Origin: Mya arenaria
Taxonomy: Eukaryota; Mollusca; Bivalvia; Myida; Myidae
Direction of reading: 5' to 3'
NCBI RefSeq assembly: GCF_026914265.1
Contig: NC_069132.1
Location: 30,436,932 to 30,500,931, forward strand
DNA: 64,000 nucleotides
Program-made: the position numbers and the translations under genes
The notes under the pieces: model-generated
Database searches by the model: none
What the model saw: the letters and a program-made list of their open reading frames with translations, nothing else
What the model was told of the DNA's origin: nothing
In this document: piece after piece, positions 1,712 to 45,168 of the stretch
Position numbering within the stretch: position 1 is the first letter of the stretch
Layout of the letters: each line of letters starts with the position of its first letter

Positions 1712-4700
1712 ATGGGTAGAAAAAACAGGAACAAGAAAACAACTCAAGGCAATGGCGCCTCGGGGTCCACAGAGGAGAGTAAAACACTTTCCAAGGCAGC
1801 TAAGAAGGATGTCATGGCATTGATAAAAACTCTTCTTGAAAGTAAGGCCCCATTTTCTCAAACAAGTCCCTTTAAACAGGATCAAGCTCAGTGCACTATT
1901 TTTGTTTTTGTATAAATTGCTATGTTCTCTTTTTAAAGAGATTTGAAAAGCTGAAAAAACACAATGATATTTAGATGAAACTTGGTATATATGTTGACAG
2001 AGACAATACTTGTGCATAGCAAGGCACATAACTCTTGCTTAAATGTTAGTAAAATTTGCCACTTGTTTGAATGAAAAAACAACAGATAAGCTTTCGCTCA
2101 CAGAGTATTTGTTATGCAATTTTTCTTAATAGCTGCAAAACACTACAGGAATATGACTAACACAGTCTGGAAAGTCATAATCATCATTCTTCTAAGACAA
2201 AAAATTGAAGAAAAAAATCTTACAAATATTGTTTAAACATATTTTATTACAATGGAAATATGTATGTTATCAAAATCAATTACTTCTAAAAATATGATAA
2301 AATACTTTTTTAGGTATGACAATGAGCTGACTTGGTCCGGCATATATTTATTTATATACATTACTTATCTTTCAGTATTTTGTATTCAATAAAGGATAAA
2401 ACCTGTTTTCTTTCTTGCTGTTACATTGAAAACATATGACATTGGTGTAGGTAAACAAGATGTGTCATTAAATACATACAAGTTTTTGTTGATTACAGAA
2501 TGTTCACAGCAGCCAAGTGCTGGAGGCAAGGAGTTTGATGATTACATGGAGATCAGAGACACAGTAGAAAAAATCAGAGCCATTCAGAAAGGTATTCTAA
2601 TTTCGAAAAAAAATATGTATACATGTAGATTTTTAATCTTGAATAAAATATGCTTGTGTATGCCTTGGACTTTGTTTGAGGTTAAGCAAATCATTTAAAC
2701 ATTTTTACCTGCTGCAGATTATAAACCTATTACATATGCAAAACAAACAAAAACATCAAAGGGATATAATACTGACTATTTATGAACATTATTTCAATTA
2801 TTTTGTTTATATGTTTTATGGTCTCATAGAACAAGACTCCTCATTTCGAAATCATTTTATCTTGTTTTCAAATTGGTTGTCAATGCAATAAAATATATAC
2901 ATTATACATTTGTAACACAAGCTAATCTTTTTAATTAATTTACAGATGTCAGCCTAAAGCCAGAGAAGAGGGATGAAAGATTTACCAAGTTTATCGAGTG
3001 GCTTCAGTCGAAGAAAGTGGACACCAGTTGTGTGGAAATTGGGAAGTTTGAAGGCCTAGGATTTGGTCTCAAGGCCACAAAAGATCTTAAGGTATGTGTT
3101 TTATGGTAGAATGTGCAAAGAGAGGTCAAGATCTTTTATGAACTATAAATTCATATGTATCTTTTGAAATGTGCTGATTTTTTTCTTCATATTTTGGAAG
3201 ATTCAGTTGCTGTTAAACAGTGTTAAATTATACTTTACTTTTGCATGCCAATGATTATATACAGCAATTTTATGGATACAGTATATTATTTCAATTTTAG
3301 ATAATGGCCTTTTTTAGTTTGTCTATTTTAAATGAAACTAAGTATACATGTTTCCAGAGGCAATACCCACATGTGTGTTGTAAGGCCAGAAACTCATGCA
3401 TTAGTTTTTAAGTCCAATGTTACTGGTTAAAAAACAGAAAAGTGTTGGTCTCTGTTAGTGGTGCTCACATTTCTCTGTTTGTTACTGTGCCTCATTCCTT
3501 TCTGAATATTTAAGTTATTAACAGTGCTATATAGATATGTTGTAATTTGTATTTTAACCAATATATGTTCTGTCTTACATAAAGGAGGGGGAAAAGTTTC
3601 TAACTTTACCACGTGATCTGATGATGACACCAAAATCTGCTCAGGATTCCTGTCTTGGTTAGTTTGTTTTCACTATATTTCCACTGTTTGCTTAGTCAAC
3701 ATAGCTAGTTTGAAAGTATGTAATGGGCACTCAAGATGCCAATACCAAAATAACTACAAGGGTAGTAACTCTAAGACAGGGAGGAGCATGAGTTATCTCC
3801 GATGATATGTTGTTGGTACACATGTACATGTATGTCCATTTCCTACAATCAGACCAACTTTGACCCATATAAGCTTACTTAACAATAACTTTAATGAAAG
3901 TGCTGGGATATGTGTGTCTGCAGTGATACCCAAATTCGAAAATAACCAAACCCTATGCCCTTATTTGGATATATGAAAGAATTGAGAATGTCCAGACCTC
4001 TACATGTATTTACCGGTACTTCCTTTTTCATATTTTGAAAACTTTCATTTGACAACTTTTACCAGTAACCAAGTAAAATTACATTTGTATATTGATTATT
4101 CTGTGTTGAATTCAATACCATTTTTGTGGTATACTTGTGAGATTTTTATTGTGCCTGTATATTGCTTGAATTATAATCTTCTTGTCAAATGATGGTTTTT
4201 ATCTCAAATGTTTGATGAAAGAATGAAAATGATACTTTAAAAAAGCTACTAGTTCATTAAGTAGTACGGGGTATTCTAGTAAGGCCATACTTCCAACCGT
4301 TTTTGTTTGTTTTAATAAAAAGAAAGTAGATCTTTAGTCTATGAAAACCAAATATTAATCATCATATAAGTAATATTAGTTTAATTGGAAGAGTACATCT
4401 GCCACGCAAATAAAATCACTACATGTCTATATTTTTTTAATGACCAGAAACAAACCTAATTTTTAGACCTTATCACCACAGTTAAATATATTGATATTTT
4501 GGACTTTTTGAAAGACTGTTGTTAGCTGGTAGAAGTAAAAAAATAGCTTGGGACATGTAAAAAAAATTCAGGACAGATTCTTTGAGCATTTGAAAATGGA
4601 TGCATCATTTGAACATTGCTAATATTCAAATGATATCACTGCATCTCTAACTGTTTTCAGGACCATTTATTGAGGAAGACAAGATACTTCAAGTGATGCC

Positions 4701-7700
4701 AAGTGTTGTCCTGGCCTTACATTTGTTGTGTGAGAGACGGACAGATGGATCACCATGGAAACCATACCTTGATATTCTCCCAGACACATACTCTACCCCT
4801 CTTTACTTTACTCCGGAAGAAATTAAGACACTGAAAGCATCTCCTGCCCAGAGTAAGAAGTTCTGAGATTTTCATTCCAATTTTATCTTCCATTTTTATG
4901 CCCCCTTTTGAAAAAAGTGGGGTATATTGTTTTGCACATGTCGGTCGGTCGGTCGGTCTGTCTGTCTGTCGGTCGGTCGGTCGGAATACCAAATGGTTTC
5001 CGATCAATAACTTGAGAACGCTTTGACCGAGGGACCTCATACTTGGTATGTGTATTGGTCATCACCAGCAGATGAACCCTATTGATTTTGAGGTCAGTGG
5101 GTCAAAGGTCAAGGTCAGTGTGACCTTTACATGAAAAACGGTTTCCGATCAATAACTTGAGAACGCTTTGACCCAGGAACCTCATACTTGGTAGGTGTAT
5201 TGGTCATGACCAGCAGATGAACCCTATTGATTTTGAGGTCAGTGGGTCAAAGGTCAAGGTCAGTGTGACCTTAACATGAAAAACGGTTTCCGATCAATAA
5301 CTTGAGAACGCTTTGACCCAGGGACCTCATACTAGGTAGGCTTATTGGTCATGACCAGCAGATGAACCCTATTGATTTTGAGGTCAGTGGGTCAAAGGTC
5401 AAGGTCAGTGTGACCTTTACATGAAAAACGGTTTCCGATCAATAACTTGAGAACGCTTTGACCCAGGAACCTCATACTTGGTAGGTGTATTGGTCATGAC
5501 CAGCAGATGAACCCTATTGATTTTTGACCAGCAGATGAACCCTATTGATTTTGAGGTCAAAGGTCAAGGTCAGTGTGACCTTAACATGAAAAACGGTTTC
5601 CGATCAATAACTTGAGAACGCTTTGACCCAGGGACCTCATACTAGGTAGGCTTATTGGTCATGACCAGCAGATGAACCCTATTGATTTTGAGGTCAGTGG
5701 GTCAAAGGTCAAGGTCAGTGTGACCTTAACATGAAAAACGGTTTCCGATCAATAACTTGAGAACGCTTTGACCCAGGGACCTCATACTAGGTAGGCTTAT
5801 TGGTCATGACCAGCAGATGAACCCTATTGATTTTGAGGTCAGTGGGTCAAAGGTCAAGGTCAGTGTGACCTTTACATGAAAAACGGTTTCCGATCAATAA
5901 CTTGAGAACGCTTTGACCCAGGAACCTCATACTTGGTAGGTGTATTGGTCATGACCAGCAGATGAACCCTATTGATTTTGAGGTCAGTGGGTCAAAGGTC
6001 AAGGTCAGTGTGACCTTAACATGAAAAACGGTTTCCGATCAATAACTTGAGAACGCTTTGACCCAGGGACCTCATACTAGGTAGGCTTATTGGTCATGAC
6101 CAGCAGATGAACCCTATTGATTTTGAGGTCAGTTGGTCAAAGGTCAAGGTCAGTGTGACTGTAAGCTGAAAAAAGGTTTTCTGATTGTCCATATTTTATT
6201 TTCTTATATAGTAGACAGTAGAAATTTATATGTCACTAAATGCATGAGTTGAAGTATCAGTTTTCAGTGAACATCTAGTTTAATTATGCCCCCCTTCGAA
6301 GCAGAGGGGTTATATAATTGCTTTGCACATGTCGGTCGGTCTGTTGGAAGACCAAAGCTTGTCCGAGTGATAACTCAACAATTCCCGGACCTATGGTCAT
6401 CAAACTTGACATGAAGATTAGGTATGACCAGTAGATGACCTGCCTCATATGCATCCAATGACAAATCAGCTGTCATTTCAGTCCATGCATATTTCATTCA
6501 ATTGTCCAAATATTTCTGGCAACTTGGCGCTCAGGGGGCATAATGTTTGACAAACATCTCTTGTTTTTTTAGCATTTTTTTGCAAGTGCCGTTTTATGAC
6601 CAAATTTTTTATTGACTACTTTAAATGCAATACATTTAAGTACCTTAATAATGTTCATATCAAAAGTACAAAAATCTGAAATGTCTTTTAATAGTTGAAG
6701 CATATATATGCTTACAATAAAATTGATGGCTTGTTGCCTCTTAATAGGCAAGTGTTGATATTTGTGTTTTTTTAGGTGACTGTATGAGTCAGTATCGGAA
6801 CATAGCTCGGCAGTATGCCTATTTCTACAAGTTGTTCCAGAGTGAATCTGTACAACAGTCTCTACCACTCAAAGATGTGTTCACTTACGATGACTACAGG
6901 TTTGATATGAATATCACTTTGAGTGATACATTTTTTGCCATGTTCAAGATGTCAATGTCTACTGAGTGTTCGGTTAGAAATTGTATTTTATGTAAGCTCA
7001 ATTGTAAAGGCGGGAGATGATATCATATTATGAATCTGTCTTACCGTAATATATATATAGTAGTTTGTTTGTCATGTAAACATCAGTACATTAGAAGTTT
7101 TGTGATAAAAAAAAATGAAAAATATATTAAGGTCTTTCCTCTTTTTACTGGGATGTCAAGAAGTTGTGCACACGTTTCTGCTTTGAAAGAAGTTATTATT
7201 CAACAGTTGTCAAACTTATTTGAACATTACCATTATCCAATTGTCACTTTTTCAGATGGGCAGTATCAACAGTGATGACCAGGCAGAACCAAATACCAAC
7301 CAGTGATGGTAGCAAGATGACCTTTGCCCTTATACCTTTATGGGACATGTGTAATCACTGTAATGGACTGGTGAGTGGTTTGACCCTTGATGACCTTTGC
7401 CCTTATACCTTTATGGGACATGTGTAATCACTGTAAGGGACTGTTGAGTAGTTTGACCCTTGATGACCTTTGCCCTTATACCTTTATGGGACATGTGTAA
7501 TCACTGTAATGGACTGGTGAGTAGTTTGACCCTTGATGACCTTTGCCCTAATACCTTTATGGGACATGTGTAATCACTGTAATGGACTGGTGATTGGTTT
7601 GACCCTTGATGACCTTTGCCCTTATACCTTTATGGGACATGTGTAATCACTGTAAGGGACTGTTGAGTAGTTTGACCCTTGATGACCTTTGCCCTTATAC

Positions 7701-10700
7701 CTTTATGGGACATGTGTAATCACTGTAATGGACTGGTGAGTAGTTTGACCCTTGATGACCTTTTCCCTTATACCTCTATGGGACATGTGTAATCACTGTA
7801 AGGGACTGTTGAGTAGTTTGACCCTTGATGACCTTTGCCCTTATACCTTTATGGGACATGTGTAATCACTGTAAGGGACTGTTGAGTAGTTTGACCCAAG
7901 ATGACCTTTGCCCTTATACCTTTATGGGACATGTGTAATCACTGTAATGGACTGGTGAGTGGGTTGACCCTTGATGACCTTTGCCCTTATACCTTTATGG
8001 GACATGTGTAATCACTGTAATGGACTGGTGAGTAGTTTGACCCAAGATGACCTTTGCCCTTATACCTTTATGGGACATGTGTAATCACTGTAAGGGACTG
8101 TTGAGTAGTTTGACCCTTGATGACCTTTGCCCTTATACCTTTATGGGACATGTGTAATCACTATAATGGACTGGTAAGTGGGTTGACCCTTGATGACTTT
8201 TGCCCTTATACCTCTATGGGACATGTGTTATCACTGTAATGGACTGGCGATTGGTTTGACCCTTGATGACCTTTGCCCTTGTACCTTTATGGGACATGTG
8301 TAATCACTGTAATGGACTGGTGATTGGTTTGACCCTTGAAGACCGTTGCCCTTGTACCTTTAGGAGACATGTGTAATCACTGTAATGGACTGTTGAGTAG
8401 TTTGACCCTTGATGACCTTTGCCCTTATACCTCTATGGGACATGTGTAATCACTGTAATGGACTGGTGATTGGTTTGACCCTTGATGACCTTTGCCCTTG
8501 TACCTTTAGGAGACATGTGTAATCACTGTAATGGACTGGTGAGTAGCCTGACCCTTGATGACCTTTGCCCTTATACCTTTATGGGACATGTGTAATCACT
8601 GTAATGGACTGGTGATTGGTTTGACCCTTGATGACCTTTGCCCTTATACCTTTATGGGATATGTGTAATCACTGTAATGGACTGGTGATTGGTTTGACCC
8701 TTGATGACCTTTGCCCTTGTACCTTTAGGAGACATGTGTAATCACTGTAATGGACTGGTGAGTAGCCTGACCCTTGATGACCTTTGCCCTTATACCTTTA
8801 TGGGACATGTGTAATCACTGTAATGGACTGGTGATTGGTTTGACCCTTGATGACCTTTGCCCTTATACCTTTATGGGATATGTGTAATCACTGTAATGGA
8901 CTGGTGATTGGTTTGACCCTTGATGACCTTTGCCCTTATACCTTTATGGGACATGTGTAATCACTGTAATGGACTGGTGATTGGTTTGACCCTTGATGAC
9001 CTTTGCCCTTATACCTTTATGGGACATGTGTAATCACTGTAATGGACTGGTGATTGGTTTGACCCTTGATGACCTTTGCCCTTATACCTTTATGGGACAT
9101 GTGTAATCACTGTAATGGACTGGTGATTGGTTTGACCCTTGATGACTTTTGCCCTTATACCTTTATGGGATATGTGTAATCACTGTAATGGACTGGTGAG
9201 TGGCTTGACCCTTTATGACCTTTGCCCTTGTACCTTTATGAGACATCTGTAATCACTGTAATGGACTGGTGAGTGGTCTGACCCTTGATGACCTTTGCCC
9301 TTATACCTATATGGGACATGTGTAATCACTGTAATGGACTGGTGAGTGGTTTGACCCTTGATAACCTTTGCCCTTATACCTTTATGGGATATGTGTAATC
9401 ACTGTAATGGACTGGTGAGTGGTTTGACCCTTGATAACCTTTGCCCTTATACCTTTATGAGACATCTGTAATCACTCTAATGGACTGGTGAGTGGTTTGA
9501 CCCTTGATGACTTTTGCCCTTATACCTTTATGGGACGTGTGTAATCACTCTAATGGACTGGTGAGTGGGTTGACCCTTGATGACCTTTGCCCTTATACCT
9601 TTATGAGACATGTGTAATCACTCTAATGGACTGGTGAGTGGTTTGACCCTTGATGACCTTTGCCCTTATACCTTTATGGGACATGTGTAATCACTGTAAT
9701 GGACTGGTGAGTGGTTTGACCCTTGATGACCTTTGCCCTTATACCTTTATGGGACATGTGTAATCACTGTAATGGACTGGTGAGTGGGTTGACCCTTGAT
9801 GACCTTTTCCCTTATACCTCTATGGGACATGTGTAATCACTGTAATGGACTGGTGAGTGGGTTGACCCTTGATGACCTATGCTCATACCATTTTTGGACA
9901 TGTGTAATCACTGTAATGGACTGGTGAGTAGTTTGACCCTTGATGACCTTTGCCCTTATACCTTTAGTGGAACTTTCAGTTAAGTGAACTTGGGCTTTTA
10001 GTGTTTTTTTAATCCTCAAGCTATGTTCTTCATGTACAATATGCCCTTTTCGCCCTTAGCAACCTGTCCCTTTGTGGATAAAAACCGTATGTAAAATCAA
10101 AGTTGTAATATGACCTTTTGTCATCAGATAGTGTCTGTTTTGTAGGTTATACAAATTATCATTTTTTCAGTTGCAACTAACGTCTTAGCCGTTTAAAAGC
10201 CTTAGATGTAGCCTAACACTGACAATAAATGTGTACAGCAGCTGTCTATCATTTTCAGATTACCACAGACTTCAACCTGGAACAGAACTGTAGTGAATGT
10301 TACTCCTTAAGAAATTACATGAAAGGAGACCAGGTATGATCGACACACTTCCAACAAACATTTATATCGTTCTATCAATATTGTATATTTAGTAGCTTAA
10401 TGAAACATAATAGAATTATGTCATACAATGTGTGCAAAACATTCCCATGTTTCCAGTAAAATGGAGTTACATGTACGTCAGTTATGGGCTATCAAAGCAA
10501 TCTTTTGGGGTTGCCCTGCCCGGTCCTGCCCGGCTAGCTCAGTATGTAAGGATTATGTCGTTTCACTGCTATGTGTGTCTTTCGCAGGGGATGTGGCGTT
10601 TCTATATTTATTATTTGAATCAAATGAAAGATATCGGAAGAGACCTAAGATTCTTTAAAAAAAAAAAGGTATAAGCAGAAAATCAATTGAATTTGAAAAA

Positions 10701-13452
10701 ACATCTCATTTGTTATGAGAAATGCTGAATTTTTGCTGAAGTAGATTTAAACAATCAAGGAAATAAAACTTAAGTTCACTGTCAAGGAATCCTTATTGTG
10801 ATTAAATGAAAATCAAATTATAAAAAGGTATGAAACGAACAAGTAAGCATGTCATTTCATAGCACCATAGGAACAACAAAAGCAGTCTTTAGTGTATTGG
10901 CTATATTACATCACAAGAGCATGACAAAGCACACAACAAAATGAGCATATGAGGGTAATGTAAATAATCACATGAAAGCTTTTTTCAAAGTGAAAAAATC
11001 TGTGTTTTTCAATTAGTTTTGTATGATATTTTCATATTCTTAATATACACATGAAACCGTATCACATCTTAACAAAATAGGATGGGGTCGCCAGGCCACC
11101 AATTTTTACACCTTATTGTACGTGTACATTGGATACTTTATAAATATATATGTTTATTTTGCAGATATTTATATTTTATGGTGCGAGGTCTAATGCTGAG
11201 TTGTTGGTCAACAATGGATTTGTGTATCTAGAGAATGAACATGATAGAATGGCAGTTAAACTAGGTATGTACAAGATAAAGTAGATTACTTGTTGATGTT
11301 TCAACCTTTATAAACAAACCCTGGCCTTTGTTTTTGGGGTATGTTAGGTATGCTGAGGTTCGGTACACTTTTTAAAAAAAAATTCTTCAAAGCTCTCAAC
11401 TCAGTGTGTTTTCTTCTGCTTTATGCTCAGGGATGGCTTTTTCTTATTTTGCATCAATAGTTGAAGGATATGGTGTAAACATGTTTAATACATGAAAATG
11501 TACCAGTTGACTGTAAAATCACATATTTTGATACAAATCATTCAGAACTTGATTGGAAGTTGAAAGCTTAGAAAGCTTATTTTCTTTGGCATCATGTTGA
11601 ATAAGTTTTTGTCTTATGAAATTTTGAAAGATGTATTTCCTTAATATAATTACATTATTTGTCAAAAATAGAAATTAAGAAATCTCAAACAGTTGGTTAA
11701 AATGGTTGTAATGTTAAATTTTAATGCCTGCTGTCCCCATATAGTTTTGGTATTATTTGAAAGGTTATTGTTTATTGGTTAGTAATATGTAAAATCAGTG
11801 ACCAGGAATACATTACAGATAAAGCTATTCGTATTTGTAGGGATGTTCTTTATTTCAACTGAAATTGGAAGTGAAATGACCAAATTTGTGATAATTCATG
11901 GCCACAACTGTGTGTTTGGACTATTATTTCTGTATAATATTTGTTTTCTTCCTATACATTAAACCCTTTTAAATGCTACCAAAAATATAGTGTTTGACCA
12001 GGTATCAAAATCACATAGGACACATTTCAAGGTACATTGCAGGTCATCTAATATTTTAATGTTTCAATGGAAAAATGTATGCAATATGCATTTGTATGTC
12101 CGTATTATACTTTATACTATAATTTATGAATATACGGCATGTGTGTTACAGTAAACACTTAACAAATAACGTAAACAGCGTAATGCATGCTATTCAACAC
12201 TGTAGAATGAATACTTCAAAGGACTCAAATGTCAGAGTTTGTCATCAAATAACAAAGACATTGATAAATCCTTTATAAAACATAATGCTGGCTTTGCAGG
12301 TATCAGTAAGACAGATCCACTGTTCGAGAAGAAGTCTGAACTGTTGACCCGATGTGGCCTGCTGGCATCCCGCACTTTCTACCTTCACACAGGAGAGCTG
12401 CCGGTAGATAGCGACCTCCTCGTCTTTTTACGCATCTTCCAGATGGATGATGGTATTGATTTTGATGGATTTTACTTTGATACAGATTCACAAGTTAATA
12501 AACATTTTCAGTATATTGGATACAATGTGTGCTTGGTGTGACTGTGAAACATAAATGCACTTTCCTGATAGTTAATACCTGTAGCCATGCATTCATTGCT
12601 TAAATATGCTAAAAATGATATTATGTCATTTGTTTTTACATTTCAAAGTCTTTGTCAAGGTAAAACACAGATGCATAAAAGATAAAAATGAGATAAAGTC
12701 TACTGTCAGAATTATTGTTCATCTACTGGTCTGATTGAATCTTCGCAATTTGCAGAAACCCTTGAGAAGTATGCAGGTTCAAATGCTGCAGAATTGAGAG
12801 ATGTACTTGGTGACCTTGACATGGTTGTTTCCAAAGAAACAGAGACAAAAGTTTGGAGTTACCTAGAAACCAGGACTACACTGCTGCTTCGTGGCTATGA
12901 TACATCAACTGAGGTACTTAAACTCTTCTGCTTTCGATAAAAAAGACATGATACAGAAAGGTGGTAATTTTTCTGAATGGTAAAATGGAGTCAAAAGCAA
13001 AGATGACATCATAATTGTGCTTGAAACATTACATAAATCAGTCTGGTTGACATGATGCTAAGTGAGAATGTTGTCTTCTATTGTGGGGGAGAACAGAGTA
13101 TCTTGAGGAAACCCACGTTTACAGATTGGAGACCACTAAGCCAAACTCACTTGCGCCCAGGTTGGGAATCGAAACCGGGTCATCTAGGTTTGGGGGGTTG
13201 AAATTGCTTGACATTTAACAGAAGTATTGTTTAGTTAATTACCCTTTTTGATATGTTCCCCAATATTTTGATTGTATGGATATTTTAATGTTTTGTTTTC
13301 AGGAAGATGAAGAATTATTAAAGAAAACCAAACTTTCTCCAGTGGAAAGACTCTGTGTACAGTTGAGGTGTTGTGAGAAAAAGATTCTACAATCAGCTTC
13401 AGAATTTGCATCCCATAGGAAACAGAAGCTACAGGCAGATTCAACGACATAG
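1712..13452 (+). CDS. SETD3: SETD3-like actin-histidine N-methyltransferase (12 coding exons, 502 aa)
   Basis: Coding exons: 1712-1841, 2499-2591, 2946-3091, 3585-3657, 4661-4852, 6776-6899, 7256-7370, 10259-10333, 11165-11264, 12300-12452, 12756-12913, 13303-13452. All junctions are GT/AG, phases agree, and the total is 1,509 nt. The protein follows vertebrate SETD3 nearly end to end: start MGRKNRNKK, GFGLKATKDLK (residues 113-123), RQYAYFYK, the SET motif WDMCNHCNGL (N286-H287), IFIFYGARSNAE (Tyr321, matching the catalytic Tyr), then a Rubisco-LSMT-type substrate-binding half. It is shorter than human SETD3 (594 aa), lacking the long acidic tail. The family methylates a histidine of actin in the cytoplasm using S-adenosylmethionine. 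The start is ATG 1712 in exon sequence just after an acceptor (AG 1700-1701), so an upstream non-coding exon is likely. Intron 7 holds a 73-bp array copied from exon 7. Intron 5 holds two repeat elements. Confidence 0.93.
4896..6283 (+). repeat. interspersed element with 145-bp tandem array (intron 5 of SETD3)
   Basis: The head TTATGCCCCCTTTTG is followed by (GTCGG/GTCTG)n at about 4940-4983, then eight units of 145 bp (start of GAGAACGCTTTGACC at 5014, 5159, 5304, 5449, 5614, 5759, 5904, 6049). The fourth-to-fifth step is 165 bp because of a 20-bp internal duplication. The head matches the reverse-complement end of the element at 46672-48388. No coding capacity. Each unit holds GGTCAGTGTGACC; seven are perfect palindromic half-site pairs. 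Confidence 0.8.
6284..6566 (+). mobile_element. short internally deleted copy of the TTATGCCCCC element
   Basis: It starts TTATGCCCCCCTTCGAAG (6285), carries GTCGGTCGG, and ends CAGGGGGCATAA (6532-6543) followed by TGTTTGACAAACATCTCTTG. Both ends correspond to the ends of the larger inverted copy at 46672-48388, but the tandem core is missing. The terminal TTATGCCCCC and GGGGGCATAA are inverted repeats, so this behaves like a MITE-sized derivative. Confidence 0.75.
7316..9966 (+). repeat. 73-bp minisatellite made from SETD3 exon 7 end plus its splice donor, about 36 copies
   Basis: The unit is 55 nt of exon 7 (7316-7370, coding for TFALIPLWDMCNHCNGL) plus 18 nt of the intron beginning GTGAGTGGTTTGACCCTT. 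The last unit breaks off at about 9966. The span from first to last unit start (7316 to 9942) is 36.0 x 73 bp. Many units are identical to the exon over the whole 55 nt. The donor position varies by unit: GTGAGT, GTGATT, GTAAGT (about 8171), GCGATT (about 8246) and TTGAGT (GT lost). Reading on from the first donor meets TAA inside the first repeated unit, and 73 is not a multiple of three, so use of a later donor would cause a premature stop. Confidence 0.95.
13083..13190 (-). mobile_element. SINE-like remnant in SETD3 intron 11
   Basis: On the - strand the segment reads GGTTTCGATTCCCAACC followed by a GTGGGTTTCCTC block. This layout looks like the 3' part of a tRNA-derived SINE. No target duplication is visible and no full tRNA head could be placed, so the call is tentative. 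Confidence 0.4.
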
Positions 13453-14250: not shown

Positions 14251-15261
14251 TACGCCCATCTTACGATGGCCGTATTATGGGAACACCCATGGCGGGCGGG
14301 CGGCGGGCGGTCGGGCGGCTCCACAATGTTGTCCGCTCTCTAACTTGAACATTTCTCATCCAATTTCCACCAAACTTCATGAAAGTGTTTGTTGGTGAAA
14401 TATCTAGGTCAAGTTCGATAACCAGCCAAATCGCTTTAGACACTCCAGAGTTATGGCCCCCTGAATTTGTCAAAATTGGCCATTTTAGCTTTGTCCGCTC
14501 TCTAACTTGATCATTTCTCATCCAATTTCCACCAAATGTCATGAAAGTGTTTGTTGGTGAAATATCTCGGTCAAGTTCAATAACCAGCCAAATCGCTTTA
14601 GGCACTCCAGAGTTATGGCCTCCTGAATTTGTCAAAACTGTCCATTTTAGCTTTGTCCGCTCTCTAACTTGAACATTTCTCATCCAATTTCCACCAAACT
14701 TCATGAAAGTGTTTGTTGGTGAAATATATAGGTCAAGTTCGATAACCAGCCTAATCGCTTTAGGCACTCCAGAGTTATGGCCCCCTGAATTTATCAAAAT
14801 TGGCCATTTTAGCTTTGTCTACTCTCAAACTTGAACAGTTTTTATCCGAATTTCACCAAACTTGCTACTATAAATGTTTGTTGGTATATATTCTTGGCAA
14901 AGTTCTATAACCAGCCAGGCTCTTCAGGATTATGGCCCTTGAATTGGTCAAAATTTGCCATTTATGACATTTCATGTTGTATGACCCCATAGTTCCCTGA
15001 AATACAGAAGTACTTGGTAAGTACAATTTTGCATGAAACCCTCAGTAAATATCAAGGGCTTGGTCCCCAAAGGTTCTAAGTGCCTATGAAAATTATAGAC
15101 ATTTTAGCACCTTTTGACTCGAAACCCTCGAATTAAAATAAAAAATTTCTACTGGTATTGCCATATTGTGCCAAATCATTTGCTTCTTGAAAAGCTTGTT
15201 TCTCAAAGGGCCAATGTGACAGTAAGTTGTCTTAGAATCCAAGAAATTATTGATGGGCGTA
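14251..15261 (+). mobile_element. TIR element with GGCGGGC-rich head and 162-bp tandem units
   Basis: Perfect 10-bp inverted termini TACGCCCATC (14251-14260) and GATGGGCGTA (15252-15261). Near the left end is a (GGCGGGC)-type stretch, 14290-14320. It is followed by at least three near-identical units of 162 bp (AACTTGA..ATTTCTCATCC at 14342, 14504, 14666) and a diverged fourth. The interior has no coding capacity beyond incidental frames. Confidence 0.75.
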
Positions 15262-15643: not shown

Positions 15644-16175
15644 CTACCTGGATACCAGATGTCTTGACTGGCCATATGGTACCAGAAGTCTTGACTGGTT
15701 ACCTGTATACCAGAAGTCTTGACTGGTTACCTGTATAACAGAAGTCTTGACTGGTTACCTGGATACCAGAAGTCTTGATTGGTTACCTGTATACCAGAAG
15801 TCTTGACTGGTTACCTGTATACTAGAAGTCTTGATTGGTTGATTGGTTACCTGTATAACAGAAGTCTTGACTGGTTACCTGGATACCAGAAGTCTTGACT
15901 GGTTATCAGGATACCAGATGTCTTATCTGGCCATATGGTACCAGAAGACTTGACTGGTTACCAGGATACCAGAAGTCTTCACTGGTTAGTGGTTACCTTG
16001 ATACCAGATGTTTCGACTGGCCACATGGATACCAGAAGTCTTGACTGATTACCCGAATACCAGAGGTCTTGACTGGTTCCCAGGATACCAGAAGTCTTGA
16101 CTAGGTACCTGGATACCAGAAGTCTTGACTGGTTACCTGGATACCAGAAGTCTTGACTGGTTACCAGGATATAAT
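15644..16175. repeat. 28-bp minisatellite, about 19 copies
   Basis: The unit is GTCTTGACTGGTTACCTG plus TATACCAGAA, with variants such as GGATACC and CATATGG. The right edge runs directly into the GPCR-like fragment on the - strand, so the fragment's reading frame continues into the array. Because 28 is not a multiple of 3, the encoded peptide has an 84-nt (28-residue) period. Confidence 0.85.
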
Positions 16176-24118: not shown

Positions 24119-26080
24119 TGGGTGTGTAAGTTATTTATACTCGCACTCAGGCAAGGCCCATTCGATGAGAATGTTAGTCATATTAGGTTTTCGGGCATAG
24201 TCAAGTCAAAGTTTTATTAGCAAATTCAATTAGAACATTGCCAGTACACAAAGAACATACTAGATGGCATTAATGACAACAAAATAATGTGAAATATAGA
24301 TATGAAATAAATATGAGATCATTTTTACAACATTTAATCTTGAGGAGAAAAGTATGAACTATAACTATACATGAAATGTATTTAGACATGTTAATTAAGC
24401 AGCATTTCTTCTATCCGTAGCGAATGATAAATAAGTAGCAATATTATTCAATATTTTATCATTATTACAGGACATCAAGTTATTAAATTTGGTCATATAT
24501 TAGGCCAGTGAATATAATACCTGGGTATATATTTTGTACGTAAATCCAAATAATGAGGACACACTAACAAAAAAATTCATTTTCTACAACATTCATATTA
24601 CATTTATTACATTTTCTATGTTCTCGGTTTATATTTCTTTATCTTCCTTCTTCAATATTAAGGTTGTGTGCCGAACATCTAAATCTAGTAAGAAGTATCC
24701 TTAACTTATTGCTATTAATACAAAATAAATATTTTTCAATTGCAAAATCTTGTTTAAAATTAACATAGCACTGTAGCTTGTCTGAATTGCTAACATATTA
24801 TTTTGTATACCATTGTTGTTAGTAAGTATCATATATTCTTCTAACGACAGCTTCTATCTGTATATTCGTTACATTATCACATGTAAATAAATAAGCAAAT
24901 CAAAGGTCGTTCAACAACTGTTTCAGATTAACTGTCCAAGTGTTTATATATTCGCCATTAACAGATTTCATATTAAATACCTTATAAATAAGAGACTCGG
25001 GATAACGTTTAACCTTGAACCAGTACTTGATAATTCGTATTTTCCTAAACAAACTTAATGGGAATCTTGCCAATTCACCATAAACTGCAGCATTGCATGA
25101 TTGCGGTCTTACACCTAAAATTTGTTTTAAGAATTTTAGTTGTACTCTCTCGATATCTTGGGCTTTATGGAAGCCCAATACTTCAGAACCATAATTAAGA
25201 ATTATCATACAATCAAATAGTTTCAGTTTATCACGTATATCTAAAAGCATAACATCAAAAAGACTATTCAATGAAAACAAGGCACGAAGTGCCTGCTCCG
25301 ATAACTTCTTTTGCGCTTGCAAATAGGTTCCATTTTGTGATAAAGTAATACCTAGATAGATAAATTTGTTAACAGCATCCAATTTATGACCATCATATAG
25401 CAAATTAACATTTTCTATTCTATTTCCCTTTTTACAAACCATTACGAAGCTTTTGTCTATATTTACAGAAATACCCCAAATATTACAATAGTCGTGTAAT
25501 TTGTTAAGTAATTGTTGAAGTCCATTTTCTGTATATGAAAATAAAACAGTATCATCTGCAAACAACAACAACATGAATAGTTGGATTTCTTCGATAGTGA
25601 TAAAGTCAATATTATCTATTTTTGGATACTCTTCCATATCATTTATAAAAAACAGAAATAAAAGTGGAGAAAGAGGTTCACCTTGTTTGACACCCATATT
25701 ACTGTTAAAATAATCACTATATTGCGATTTAACACGTACACATGGCTTTACTTCTTCATAAATCTTTTTAAGCATTGATACAAGTTTTGTAGATGCACCA
25801 TATTGTAATAATTTGTACCATATACCATTTCGCTATACAACATCGAATGCCTTACGAAAGTCAATAAAGGCATAGTGCACAGACAGAAAGTAACCCTGGT
25901 TAGAGCTACCCTGGTTCTTTAGCGTGCACCAGTTTATACCAATGTCACATAGTAACCCCATTTAACGTCCCTCCCGGAAGAAGATTAGTATTTTTTTTAA
26001 TGTTGTGGCGGTGAAGCGTACTGTTCAGCGATCCCTGGATTGACAGTTAAGTGTGTTACCACTAGACCACGAATCCGCCA
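24119..26080 (-). mobile_element. second SINE copy, split by a nested LINE
   Basis: On the - strand the head (A box TGGTCTAGTGG, then the CTTCTTCCGGGAGGGACG and GCACGCTAAAGAACC blocks) runs from about 26080 to 25869, and the tail (matching TATTTATACTCGCACTC and GGGTGTGTAAG) is found at 24200-24119. Both parts align with the uninterrupted SINE at 1260-1550. The two halves are separated by the LINE fragment at 24201-25868 and share GGCATAG at the break (24194-24200 and 25869-25875). The B box is degraded, so this copy is older than the one at 1260. Confidence 0.8.
24201..25868 (-). mobile_element. 5'-truncated LINE (RT domain onward) inserted in a SINE
   Basis: On the - strand the frame at 25775-24900 encodes reverse transcriptase from just after motif A: GVKQGEPLSPLLFLFFINDM, then FADDTVLFSY (the catalytic DD), NIDKSFVMVCKKG and KFIYLGITLSQNG, then a C-terminal part to LKQLLNDL. 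Upstream of 25775 the RT motif A (IDFRKAFDVV) is followed by a stop, so the coding region is degraded as well as 5'-truncated. The 3' end is AATAAAACTTTGACTTGAC, a short tandem rather than a long poly-A. The insertion duplicated 7 bp (GGCATAG). It belongs to the APE-type LINEs; clade not decided. It differs from the LINE at 41328-45410. Confidence 0.85.
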
Positions 26081-28646: not shown

Positions 28647-29404
28647 ATGAAGACTCCGACTTTATGCAAAGAATGCGGAATGGCATATCAAAATAAAAAA
28701 AACAACATCTAGTAGACCACGATAGAAGGCATTCTGATCAATTGCCATCGTTTTTGCGGGAAAGTGTTTACACAGACACAGGTTAGTTTTTAGTTTTATT
28801 TTTTCGCAGAGAAATAAGAATATACTAACAGTTATACTTTTATTATGACTCCCCTCGTGTAGAGGTTAAGACTTGCCGTCGTCTGAATGTGTTTTCATCG
28901 TTTTTTAGGGGTTACGTTTTTCACATTATAATGTGGTCCGTGTTTCAGTGGATAGGGTCGTTTAGTTATATGATGCTGATTACACGATCAAACACTCATT
29001 GCGTGGCAGTAATATAGTGTTTTTTTATAAATTATATTCAAGTACTGACATTGCCAGCATTTCTCGCTAACTTGTGACAGTACATGTCTTTTATAGGTGC
29101 AGCAATCACGGCGAGACAAAGTTGCACGTTTGCAAATATTGTGGCAAAACTGCTCTTGCAAGACTTGAAGATACACGAAAGACGCGAAAGTGGCCAATTG
29201 AAGCTAACGTGTGATGTGTGTGGGTTCAAATTGGGTGACACGACCAATCTCAGTGACCAGATCTCTACTAGACACAGGGGAATGACACGTCACAAATGTC
29301 TACAGTGTCGCTCAGCATTCAAGTTCAAATCTGGACTCAGTAGGCACGTTAAGGCGAAACACACCTTATCAGAACACATTGAAAGATCACAATGGTCTAG
29401 TTAG
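28647..29404 (+). pseudogene. degraded C2H2 zinc-finger coding sequence inside a long-TIR element
   Basis: Two exon-like blocks. Block 1 (28647-28781) starts MKTPTLCKECGMAYQNKK, then loses frame at an A-run (TAG at once after) while the next frame gives HLVDHDRRHSD, completing a finger; it ends at a donor (GT 28782). Block 2 (29097-29404) follows an acceptor (AG 29095-29096). One frame has CSNHGETKLHVCKYCGK, another continues KIHERRESGQ then TCDVCGFKLGD..RH and KCLQCRSAFKFKSGLSRHVK and stops at 29404. So about four fingers can be seen, with at least two frameshifts. The location midway between the two inverted arms suggests it belonged to the element, for example as a DNA-binding or transposition protein, but capture of a host gene is equally possible. 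Confidence 0.6.
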
Positions 29405-41631: not shown

Positions 41632-44600
41632 GACGTACAGGGAGAGCACTTGACCGTGAATAGTGACCTAAATGATATCATATACCACAGTGAAAATGTG
41701 TGTTTACAACGTCATGGTCTCAAATTTATTTCATTGAATGTTTGCGGCTTAAAATCAAAACATATCGATCCGGAGTTTTGTAGTTTTATTGCTAATTATG
41801 ATATCATTGGCTTTCAGGAAACAAAAAGTGATAGCTTAGACATTTTAGAATTTAAGAATTTCAATTTACATTTCAAACATAGGAAAACTATTGCGTCTAG
41901 AAAATCAGGCGGTTTATGCTTAGCTGTCAAAAAACATTTAGATACTCTTGTTTCTGTAATTGATACACCAAGTAGATATATATTATGGTTTAAACTACAT
42001 AACAAATTTACAAAGTGTGGTGATGTATTATATGGCGTAGTCTACTTGCCGCCAGAGGGCTCTATTTATTATAACGACGATGCATTTATTGAAATTCAGA
42101 ACGAAGTTGACTCGTTATCTCATAGATTTGCAAATGTTTGTTTGTTTGGTGACTGGAACTCGAGGACAAAACAATTACAAGACTATGTTAGGCCAGACTA
42201 TGATATTTTCCGTGAAAATAATATTTTAGACGTTTATGACGAATTAATTAGTAACGAACATTTATTCTTTGAAGCTGGGTTAAACTTGCAAAGAAATAAT
42301 CGTGATAATATGACTAACAATCACGGCTATAAGCTGATAGACTTTTTGAATCAAAATAGATTATATATACTTAACGGCAGAGTGAAGGGAGATAACTCTG
42401 GCAATGTTACATGTAAAGGTAGCAGCACAGTGGACTATTTTATGTGTTCGCCGTCTTTATTTCAAAATGTTATAAGCTTAAAAGTTTTAGATTTTTGTTC
42501 ACTTCTTTCAGATGTACATTGCCCTATCGAAGTTGTGTTTGATTTTGGAAGAGTTATTAATACGCATCTGAATGTAAATATCCCCAAAGTGAACTACTGG
42601 GATAAAGGGAAAGAAAATATTTTCGTTTCAAATATTGATGAAGACAAAATTTATGACATTTACAATAATGTATGTGCCTTAGATGAAACTAATATGTACT
42701 CAGTTGAAGCTGTTGATAGTATTGTAGAAAGTATTTGTGACGTATATCATACGAGTTGCAGTAAAAGTTTTGCTGTTAGGAAATCAAAACATGTATATAG
42801 TGATAATAGTCAAAAGGTGCCAAAATGGTTTAATAAGAACTGCAGTCATGCACGAAAGAATTTGCATAAGGCAAAATATCAATACAAGTTACAAAAATGT
42901 GACGAGAACAAGAGTGTGTTAAAACAAGCAAGCAAATGTTACAAAAAGTCACTAAGAAGTTCTTACAAAACGTTTCAAAATCATAATGTTACAAAGTTAA
43001 AGTCGTTGAAAACCTCAAATCCTAGAAAATTTTGGAAAATTTTAAACGGTAAAAAGAAAGCAAATATTGTTGCTAGCTTAAGCGATCTAGAAACACATTT
43101 TAGAAATGTCAATGCGGACGATACCAATAATATTACAGGTATCCAAAATAATGTACGAAATATCCATTCTGATGCAAACAATGACTTATTGAATTGTGAT
43201 ATTTCCGAAGAAGAAATCAGAAATGCTGTAAAATCTTTGAAAAACAACAAAGCTAGTGGAATTGATAATATTTTGAATGAGCATATTATACATTCATTTC
43301 CACTTATGAAAGATATTTATGTAAAATTGTTTAATATTGTTTTTAAGTCTGGTATTGTGCCTCGAAATTGGACTATTGGTGTTATTAACCCTATATATAA
43401 AAATAAAGGATCAATACACGATCCTACGAATTATAGACCAATTACTTTACTAAGCTGTATAGGAAAACTTTTTACCTCCGTCTTAAATTCGAGACTACAG
43501 AAATTCGGTGACAAATACGATCTAATAAATCAATACCAGGCCGGTTTTAGACAGGGTTATTCTACTGTTGATAACATGTTTGTGTTAAATTGTATAATTG
43601 AACTGTTACAAAAGCATAAAAAAAATATATTCTGTGCTTTTATAGACCTCAAAGGTGCATTTGATACTATAAATAGATCTTTACTATGGTCCAAGCTAAT
43701 GTCATACAATATCAACGGCCTGTTTTTGGATGTTGTGAAATCGATGTATAATCATGCAAAATCGTGTGTGTCTGTTAATGGAAATCATTCAACCTACTTT
43801 CCGTGCTCCATTGGTGTACGCCAGGGCGAGAATTTATCGCCATTATTGTTTTCTTATTATCTAGATGATCTGCATGAATATTTTCGAAATAGTACAGTTT
43901 TGTACGGTGTCAGTAGTAATACTCACCCATTAGATAATAATTTGGTCGCCTATCTGAAAATATTTGTACTTTTGTATGCAGATGACACTGTCATCATATC
44001 CGAATCAGCTGATGATCTTCAAAATGCTATTGACCTTTATGAACAATACTGTGACCTATGGAAACTGACTGTCAACACTTCTAAAACCAAAATTCTAGTT
44101 ATTCAGAAAGGCAGAAGACGTAATTATCAATTTCTGTATAAAGGCAATTCATTGGACGTGGTCGATAGTTTTAAATATTTAGGATTAGTATTTAGCAACA
44201 GTGGCTCTTTTTATAAAGCTAAGGTTGAAATATCAAAGCAGGCACTTAAAGCTATGTACTGCCTTCTAAGCAAATGTAAGCATTTAGCTCTGCCGATTGA
44301 TATGCAAATAGATCTGTTCAATAAAATGATCAAACCTATACTTCTATATGGTTGTGAATGCTGGGGATATGGCAATAATGAAATTTTAGAAAGAGTTCAA
44401 CTTAAATTTTTGAAATATATTTTATGTGTTAAGTCAAGCACCGCGTCTTGCATAGTATACGGTGAAACAGGCGTCAAACCGTTATCAATTGACATAGAGA
44501 CTAGAATGATTTCATATTGGACAAAACTTGTATCACCATTGTACCCAAAATTAGTAACAACCATGTATACGATAATGTTAAGTAATTATATCTTTGATGT

Positions 44601-45168
44601 AAACATACGTAGCAATACTTTTTTATGGATTTCTTTTGTCAAAAAAATATTCATAAAATGTGGTCTTAATAATATATGGGATTCACATATATTTCCAAAT
44701 CATAAATGGTTGACTTGCAATGTTAAACAGAAACTCATAGATTTGTTTTTAAATGAATGGTATAGCATTGTTAACACTTCCAGTAAATGCAACAACTATA
44801 AATTGTTTAAGAACGAGTTCGGAATTGAGAACTATCTAAAAACTTCACCTTACAAATTGTTAAAGTTTATGATTAAATTTCGAACCAGAAACCATCATCT
44901 TCCTATTGAGACAGGAAGCTGGATTGGACTTGATATGTCATCGAGGAAGTGTCCTTTGTGTCAAGCAAACAGTAGCATTGGAGACGAATATCACTATCTA
45001 CTTGAATGTAAAGCTTTAACCAATAGCAGAAAGCGATTTATTGATAAAAAATACTATATCAATCCAAATGTCATCAAATTTAAATCTCTAATGTGTATGT
45101 GTAACACTCAAATGTCGAAATACAAAAAGTTGTGTAAATTTGTGAAGGAAATAGTAAAACTGTTCTAA
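41632..45168 (+). CDS. LINE ORF2: endonuclease-reverse transcriptase, intact frame
   Basis: One uninterrupted frame of about 1,170 codons. Residues 20-300: AP-like endonuclease with LKFISLNVCGL, FQETKSD (catalytic Glu), YGVVYLPP, LFGDWNSR, TVDYFMCS and SDVHCPIEVVF (final His). Residues about 575-860: reverse transcriptase with INPIYKNKG, NYRPITLLSCIGKLF, QAGFRQGYST, FIDLKGAFDTI (motif A), GVRQGENLSPLLFSYYLDDL and LLYADDTVIIS (catalytic YADD), NTSKTKILVIQKG. The C-terminus has a CCHC-type knuckle, CPLCQ..GDEYHYLLEC. The frame opens after TAG (41629-41631) and has no ATG before the endonuclease domain; TTG at 41650 is one possible start, so translation by reinitiation or from an upstream frame is likely. 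Clade not assigned. Confidence 0.92.
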   Translation, partial: DVQGEHLTVNSDLNDIIYHSENVCLQRHGLKFISLNVCGLKSKHIDPEFCSFIANYDIIGFQETKSDSLDILEFKNFNLHFKHRKTIASRKSGGLCLAVKKHLDTLVSVIDTPSRYILWFKLHNKFTKCGDVLYGVVYLPPEGSIYYNDDAFIEIQNEVDSLSHRFANVCLFGDWNSRTKQLQDYVRPDYDIFRENNILDVYDELISNEHLFFEAGLNLQRNNRDNMTNNHGYKLIDFLNQNRLYILNGRVKGDNSGNVTCKGSSTVDYFMCSPSLFQNVISLKVLDFCSLLSDVHCPIEVVFDFGRVINTHLNVNIPKVNYWDKGKENIFVSNIDEDKIYDIYNNVCALDETNMYSVEAVDSIVESICDVYHTSCSKSFAVRKSKHVYSDNSQKVPKWFNKNCSHARKNLHKAKYQYKLQKCDENKSVLKQASKCYKKSLRSSYKTFQNHNVTKLKSLKTSNPRKFWKILNGKKKANIVASLSDLETHFRNVNADDTNNITGIQNNVRNIHSDANNDLLNCDISEEEIRNAVKSLKNNKASGIDNILNEHIIHSFPLMKDIYVKLFNIVFKSGIVPRNWTIGVINPIYKNKGSIHDPTNYRPITLLSCIGKLFTSVLNSRLQKFGDKYDLINQYQAGFRQGYSTVDNMFVLNCIIELLQKHKKNIFCAFIDLKGAFDTINRSLLWSKLMSYNINGLFLDVVKSMYNHAKSCVSVNGNHSTYFPCSIGVRQGENLSPLLFSYYLDDLHEYFRNSTVLYGVSSNTHPLDNNLVAYLKIFVLLYADDTVIISESADDLQNAIDLYEQYCDLWKLTVNTSKTKILVIQKGRRRNYQFLYKGNSLDVVDSFKYLGLVFSNSGSFYKAKVEISKQALKAMYCLLSKCKHLALPIDMQIDLFNKMIKPILLYGCECWGYGNNEILERVQLKFLKYILCVKSSTASCIVYGETGVKPLSIDIETRMISYWTKLVSPLYPKLVTTMYTIMLSNYIFDVNIRSNTFLWISFVKKIFIKCGLNNIWDSHIFPNHKWLTCNVKQKLIDLFLNEWYSIVNTSSKCNNYKLFKNEFGIENYLKTSPYKLLKFMIKFRTRNHHLPIETGSWIGLDMSSRKCPLCQANSSIGDEYHYLLECKALTNSRKRFIDKKYYINPNVIKFKSLMCMCNTQMSKYKKLCKFVKEIVKLF

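Follow-up and report, generated by a model that had tools for sequence, protein, structure and literature searches.

SETD3 and the repeat in its intron 7

The window analyzed here comprises 64,000 nt of Mya arenaria DNA (NCBI RefSeq assembly GCF_026914265.1, contig NC_069132.1, positions 30,436,932 to 30,500,931, forward strand) and carries a gene for SETD3, whose intron 7 is filled for the most part by a 73-bp tandem array of copies of the preceding exon end and its splice donor. All positions below are those of the window, and the gene is laid out as follows:

1712–13452, plus strand: coding region of SETD3, 502 aa in 12 coding exons (positioned by eye), without internal stop
1712–1841, 2499–2591, 2946–3091, 3585–3657, 4661–4852, and 6776–6899, plus strand: SETD3 coding exons 1 to 6
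7256–7370, 10259–10333, 11165–11264, 12300–12452, 12756–12913, and 13303–13452, plus strand: SETD3 coding exons 7 to 12
7256–7370, plus strand: coding exon 7, 115 nt, ending in ...WDMCNHCNGL

The predicted 502-aa protein matches human SETD3 (6jat_A) with E 3.2e-146, covering residues 1–492, and contains the Pfam domains SET and Rubis-subs-bind. By this full-length similarity together with the SET and Rubisco-LSMT substrate-binding domains, the gene is SETD3, the actin-histidine methyltransferase, as a preliminary description of the same DNA had named it. Methylation of actin His73, the activity that defines this class, may be that of the clam protein as well. All 11 introns have GT–AG borders. 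Ten bases upstream of the ATG, the sequence reads TTTGCAG—a candidate 3′ splice site that suggests a noncoding first exon; "exon 7" hence stands for coding exon 7 throughout, and the numbering in the mRNA may differ. The donor of this exon reads CTG/GTGAGTGG (the slash marking the exon border), and the intron behind it measures 2888 nt, of which 2596 nt are array:

7316–9966, plus strand: 73-bp tandem array, 36 units (unit 36 of 71 nt) and 25 nt, from Tandem Repeats Finder (TRF) and unit alignment
7316–7388, plus strand: unit 1, the exon end with the inferred authentic donor GTGAGT (7371–7376)
7389–7461, plus strand: unit 2, the first intronic copy, donor destroyed (TTGAGT), at +73
7425–7427, plus strand: stop codon TAA, included in any extended exon 7
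7462–7534, plus strand: unit 3, whose GTGAGT (from 7517) is the first intact decoy donor, at +146
7827–8045, plus strand: units 8 to 10, of which 8 and 10 end in CCCAA, like the exon flank CAA (7313–7315)
8442–8937, plus strand: internal repeat, exact over 277 bp at offset 219, a three-unit block
9141–9941, plus strand: units 26 to 36, GTGAGT in 11 of 11
9967–10258, plus strand: non-array rest of intron 7, 292 nt, carrying the exon 8 acceptor

On 7316–9966, TRF reports a period of 73, 36.3 copies, 93% matches, 0% indels, and a score of 4602. Cut at 73 nt, the array yields 35 units that align without indels, followed by a unit 36 of 71 nt (9871–9941) and by 25 nt of a 37th unit that end at 9966. 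Each unit consists of the last 55 nt of exon 7 and 18 intron nt, and units of this size (within about 10–100 bp), arranged head to tail with variant copies, make the array a minisatellite. The 36-copy, 73-bp minisatellite from the end of exon 7 announced in the preliminary description is thus found again, with the copy number being a count in one assembled sequence that contains no N in the window. Its start was misplaced, however: 7256 is the start of the exon, and the array begins at 7316, 60 nt into the exon and seamless with it.

Unit 1, which is the exon copy, is identical to the unit consensus. Over the 55 exon-derived nt, 11 of the 34 intronic 73-nt units (units 2 to 35) equal the exon, in agreement with the earlier statement that many copies do; over all 73 nt, this holds for one of 34 (unit 33). 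Unit distances and variant counts refer here and below to units 1 to 35, with unit 36 and the 25-nt remainder set aside, as the differences of unit 36 from the consensus in a 73-nt cut reflect its shift; the donor counts include unit 36.

Specificity of the repeated exon edge

Every exon edge of the gene was compared with both strands of the window, allowing at most 10 substitutions in 48 nt. For the exon 7 end, 36 matches were obtained, while each of the 12 exon starts and of the 11 remaining exon ends, of which 10 are donors and one is the stop-codon end, matched nothing but itself. Among the SETD3 exon edges, it is solely the end of exon 7 that is repeated, and the behavior of the other 23 edges speaks against a chance match. 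A doubled unit found 38 blastn hits across the window, a number that fell to zero (E ≤ 1) once 7256–9990 was masked; of 104 12-mers of exon 7, one has a further occurrence in the window when both strands are counted, and none on the plus strand. At gathering thresholds, Rfam matched nothing in the window. Exact unit patterns had no hits in viral and none in prokaryote contigs, which are not expected to hold animal DNA. The predicted RNA structure of the first four units is not unusual (z 0.67).

The unit-encoded peptide ends in ...LIPLWDMCNHCNGL, where human SETD3 has NHTNGL, and the repeated Asn-His pair corresponds to human Asn278 and His279, counted from the 6wk1 chain. According to PMC6400499, both residues contact S-adenosylhomocysteine, and the N278A exchange severely impairs kcat. 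The repeated 55 nt hence do hold the catalytic-site Asn-His motif that had been recognized in them, one that contacts the cofactor AdoMet. Asn256, which likewise figures in the kinetics table of PMC6400499, maps by alignment to exon 7 upstream of the array. Units 30 to 32 (9433–9651) would encode NHSNG, compared with NHCNG in the exon and NHTNG in human SETD3. This serine may preserve a former state of the exon or be a new mutation; one G>C change explains it equally well.

Splice donors along the array

The array repeats the donor along with the exon end. The 35 extra donor positions read GTGAGT in 17 units, GTAAGT in one, GTGATT in 10, TTGAGT in six, and GCGATT in one, so that 18 are intact, 10 weakened, and six devoid of GT, besides the single GCGATT—17 weakened or dead in total. 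A ladder of exon ends and donors downstream of the true one, as described before, is hence present, with about half of its rungs intact. The decay is unevenly distributed: 17 of 24 donors are weakened or dead in units 2 to 25 vs none of 11 in units 26 to 36. We do not claim selection for weak donors near the exon from this, since neighboring copies descend from each other and block repeats make the units nonindependent. Nor are the six donor positions significantly more variable than the remainder of the unit (4/6 vs 22/67, Fisher p 0.18).

In energies calculated as a simple duplex with the U1 5′ end, and not as a trained splice score, the authentic donor reaches −10.3 kcal/mol, the best of the 11 SETD3 donors. 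GTGATT, TTGAGT, and GCGATT fall to −5.2, −4.3, and −1.5 kcal/mol, respectively.

It had been proposed that later donors would add 73 nt to the exon and run into TAA. The stop at 7425 stands, and the added length does not: the donor at +73 is dead, and the first intact one lies at +146. Among the first six extra units, the intact donors are those of units 3 and 6, which would give exons of 261 and 480 nt vs 115 nt.

In units 15, 17, and 20 (8338–8775), a pyrimidine-rich, acceptor-like CCTTTAG site lies 29 nt before the donor position of the unit, which is intact in units 17 and 20 and dead in 15. Cassette micro-exons starting from the CTTTAG sites of these three units are possible.

Variation among the units

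The exon copy is the medoid of all units, tied with unit 33, with a mean distance of 2.71 vs 4.54 for all pairs; over the 55 exon-derived nt, the values are 1.38 and 2.48. This central position in the cloud of units is expected of a seed held by coding selection. Similarity to the exon shows no gradient with distance along the array (Spearman −0.16, p 0.36). Units 1 to 35 hold 29 distinct changes, many of them locally shared. Within the 55 exon-derived nt, four of 19 distinct changes and 12 of 47 occurrences are synonymous, at a random expectation of 19–25%; lacking a synonymous excess, the copies behave as noncoding DNA. Of repeated transfer of exon variants, these data give no sign. The preliminary description had held that exon and array "must have been homogenised" recently—a necessity that is not supported, given the medoid position of the exon and the absence of both a gradient and a synonymous excess. 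Reading the array itself as coding sequence was considered and rejected, as no stop-to-stop open reading frame of at least 90 aa closes within it and the pattern of changes is noncoding.

Part of the array appears to have grown in larger steps. Besides the 277-bp repeat, a second exact repeat of 169 bp occurs at offset 219, and among 15 unit offsets tested, offset 3 shows excess similarity (3.56 vs 4.58; none of 2000 shuffles gave so low a value). At offset 2 the excess is borderline (0.043), and the remaining 13 offsets are without any. Such three-unit block repeats would be typical of slippage or unequal exchange.

Origin of the array

We favor, with a probability of roughly 0.7, an intronic minisatellite that arose from a tandem duplication spanning the 3′ border of a coding exon and is passive and tolerated. 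One duplication of a segment of ∼73 bp (55–58 exon nt and 15–18 intron nt) would have provided the first copy, and the copies would then have multiplied via slippage or unequal exchange, partly as three-unit blocks. The mRNA would remain unchanged as long as the first donor stays in use, with the first copy being a complete exon end and the remainder intronic. The extra copies would no longer be constrained by coding, and roughly half of their donors have decayed. We infer this order of events, the use of the first donor, and the lack of a function from what is observed in the anatomy of the array, the identity of the exon, the variation of the units, the block repeats, and the donor states: the array is seamless with the exon, the repeated edge is unique, the open reading frame and domains of SETD3 are intact, the exon copy is central, the changes are noncoding, blocks are duplicated, and 17 of the 35 extra donors are no longer intact. 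Exon definition, or a rule by which the donor transcribed first is used first, would favor the first donor.

Several points weigh against this reading. It presupposes an unduplicated ancestor. The 18 intact extra donors pair with U1 at −10.2 to −10.8 kcal/mol, equal to the authentic donor, and donor competition is plausible with so many strong copies, including all 11 nearest the acceptor. In competition models, reportedly those of Eperon and colleagues in 1993, the donor nearest the acceptor is favored where several donors are occupied; competition of this type would favor units 26 to 36, all 11 of which are intact. Also, the CAA in units 8 and 10 (CCCTT ends the other 33 of units 1 to 35) is not simply explained by a single clean duplication and independent drift. 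Units 9 and 11 are in this way preceded by the exon's own flank, and unit 9 forms an exact match of 66 nt (7313–7378) to the exon end and the first 8 intron nt. One possibility is a first duplication starting at 7313 or 7314, with TT arising afterward; the other is that exon sequence was copied into the array at a later time. Finally, the longest exact match including the exon end spans 121 nt (7316–7436, the exon end and the following 66 nt) and leads to units 33 and 34 near the far end. This is consensus sequence and fits a seed, but recent exchange would also produce such a match.

The strong extra donors lead to an alternative that we regard as unlikely, namely a leaky or regulated donor ladder, in which splicing at downstream donors would carry the TAA at 7425 into the mRNA, the outcome would be degradation or a truncated protein, and array length would tune the SETD3 level. 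Equal U1 pairing of the 18 intact copies and a TAA in every extension are what such a ladder requires, and IFI6 offers a precedent, with two downstream repeat units used as donors (PMC4526556). However, the ladder lacks its first rung at +73 and has only those of units 3 and 6 among the first six, and selection would be expected to act against a premature stop in a conserved enzyme.

The CAA trace and the 121-nt match, together with the identity of exon and unit consensus, could instead reflect concerted evolution, that is, gene conversion between exon 7 and the units, with the cofactor-binding motif evolving along with its noncoding copies. This seems doubtful to us, as the exon sits where a constrained seed should, neither a distance gradient nor a synonymous excess is seen, and the CAA is also explained if the first duplication had its breakpoint slightly upstream. 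Later exchange may still have left the CAA trace.

It is similarly improbable that the copy number is an assembly artifact, produced by inflation of a short array or collapse of a longer one. Assemblies are known to go wrong at long near-identical arrays, but 29 distinct changes, many shared locally, mark units 1 to 35, the window is free of N, and SETD3 continues intact to either side of the array. Least of all do we expect a ladder that is still active, with 18 donors in competition and with its length and donor decay setting the amount of functional SETD3, combined with ongoing exchange between exon and units that maintains or alters the cofactor motif.

The proposed seeding of a passive array by duplication across the exon edge suggests a route by which a coding exon might give rise to a minisatellite without a change in the protein, as the duplication crosses the donor. 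In addition, the locus amounts to a natural experiment on how 5′ splice sites are chosen: a presumed authentic donor and 35 exon-end copies, 18 with equal U1 pairing, share one intron of a conserved gene, which could serve to test competing models of donor choice. Exclusive use of the first donor would mean that position or exon definition counts for more than site strength and exon-end sequence. If other donors are used as well, repeat length would be a regulator of an actin-modifying enzyme.

Other features of the window

SETD3 intron 5 holds a further, 145-bp tandem array (4991–6179) behind a GTCG microsatellite and, by eye, a ATGCCCCC end; this is perhaps a mobile element with internal repeats. 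TRF finds other arrays with periods of 145–166 bp at 14329, 37114, 39158, 46903, 47418, and 62684, and a 28-bp array of 18.4 copies at 15645–16171. An open frame of 1178 aa (41632–45168) with endonuclease/phosphatase and reverse transcriptase domains is probably an element of the long interspersed nuclear element (LINE) type. A reverse transcriptase fragment lies on the minus strand at 24900–25832, and a 108-aa frame at 29078–29404 shows a weak zinc-finger match (27.8 bits, below the curated cut-off of 40 bits).

Relation to known repeat systems

In the open-licence literature, narrow queries gave no recognizable equivalent case among the matches listed, as judged from titles and the beginnings of abstracts, and SETD3 in combination with bivalves was not found there either. 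The closest relative is the minisatellite of human IFI6 (6-16), reported, by its title, to contain multiple splice donor sites (Turri, Cuin and Porter 1995, Nucleic Acids Research (NAR) 23:1854). Like IFI6, the array described here overlaps an exon end and repeats splice donors, with GTGAGT or GTAAGT in 18 of 35 further units. Unlike in IFI6, where the unit is short (12 nt), its unit is 73 nt long with 55 coding nt, the gene is unrelated, and extension of the exon hits a stop. For IFI6, two downstream repeat units serve as donors, as a citing paper states (PMC4526556).

Other systems share single traits. Intron gain in the potato RdRp gene is ascribed to tandem duplication across an intron–exon boundary (PMC4974935); such a boundary is crossed in SETD3 as well, whereas here an exon end and its 5′ donor were copied many times, with the copies lying within one intron. 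The Rogers model of intron gain, in which both splice sites stem from duplicated copies, does not apply to intron 7, as 292 nt of non-array sequence separate the array from the end of the acceptor at 10258. In the fission yeast genes SPOG_01682 and SOCG_00815, intronic tandem repeats resemble a nearby exon and contain the splice-like AGGC in their units (PMC3629103), and intron 7 of SETD3 similarly holds exon-like tandem repeats with splice-like sites. They differ in having 24-nt units and introns across four and two duplicates (as summarized in PMC4974935) and in that these introns are described as newly gained. The VNTR6-1 of TERT intron 6 is likewise an intronic minisatellite, with a 38-bp unit and an article title on the genetic regulation of TERT splicing (PMC11830802); this title and the start of the abstract mention neither an exon origin nor donors. 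The SETD3 array hence belongs to a kind already known from IFI6, from boundary-crossing duplications, and from introns made of repeats, and what it adds is the length of the unit, its 55 coding nt with a cofactor-binding motif among them, and the number of 36 copies.
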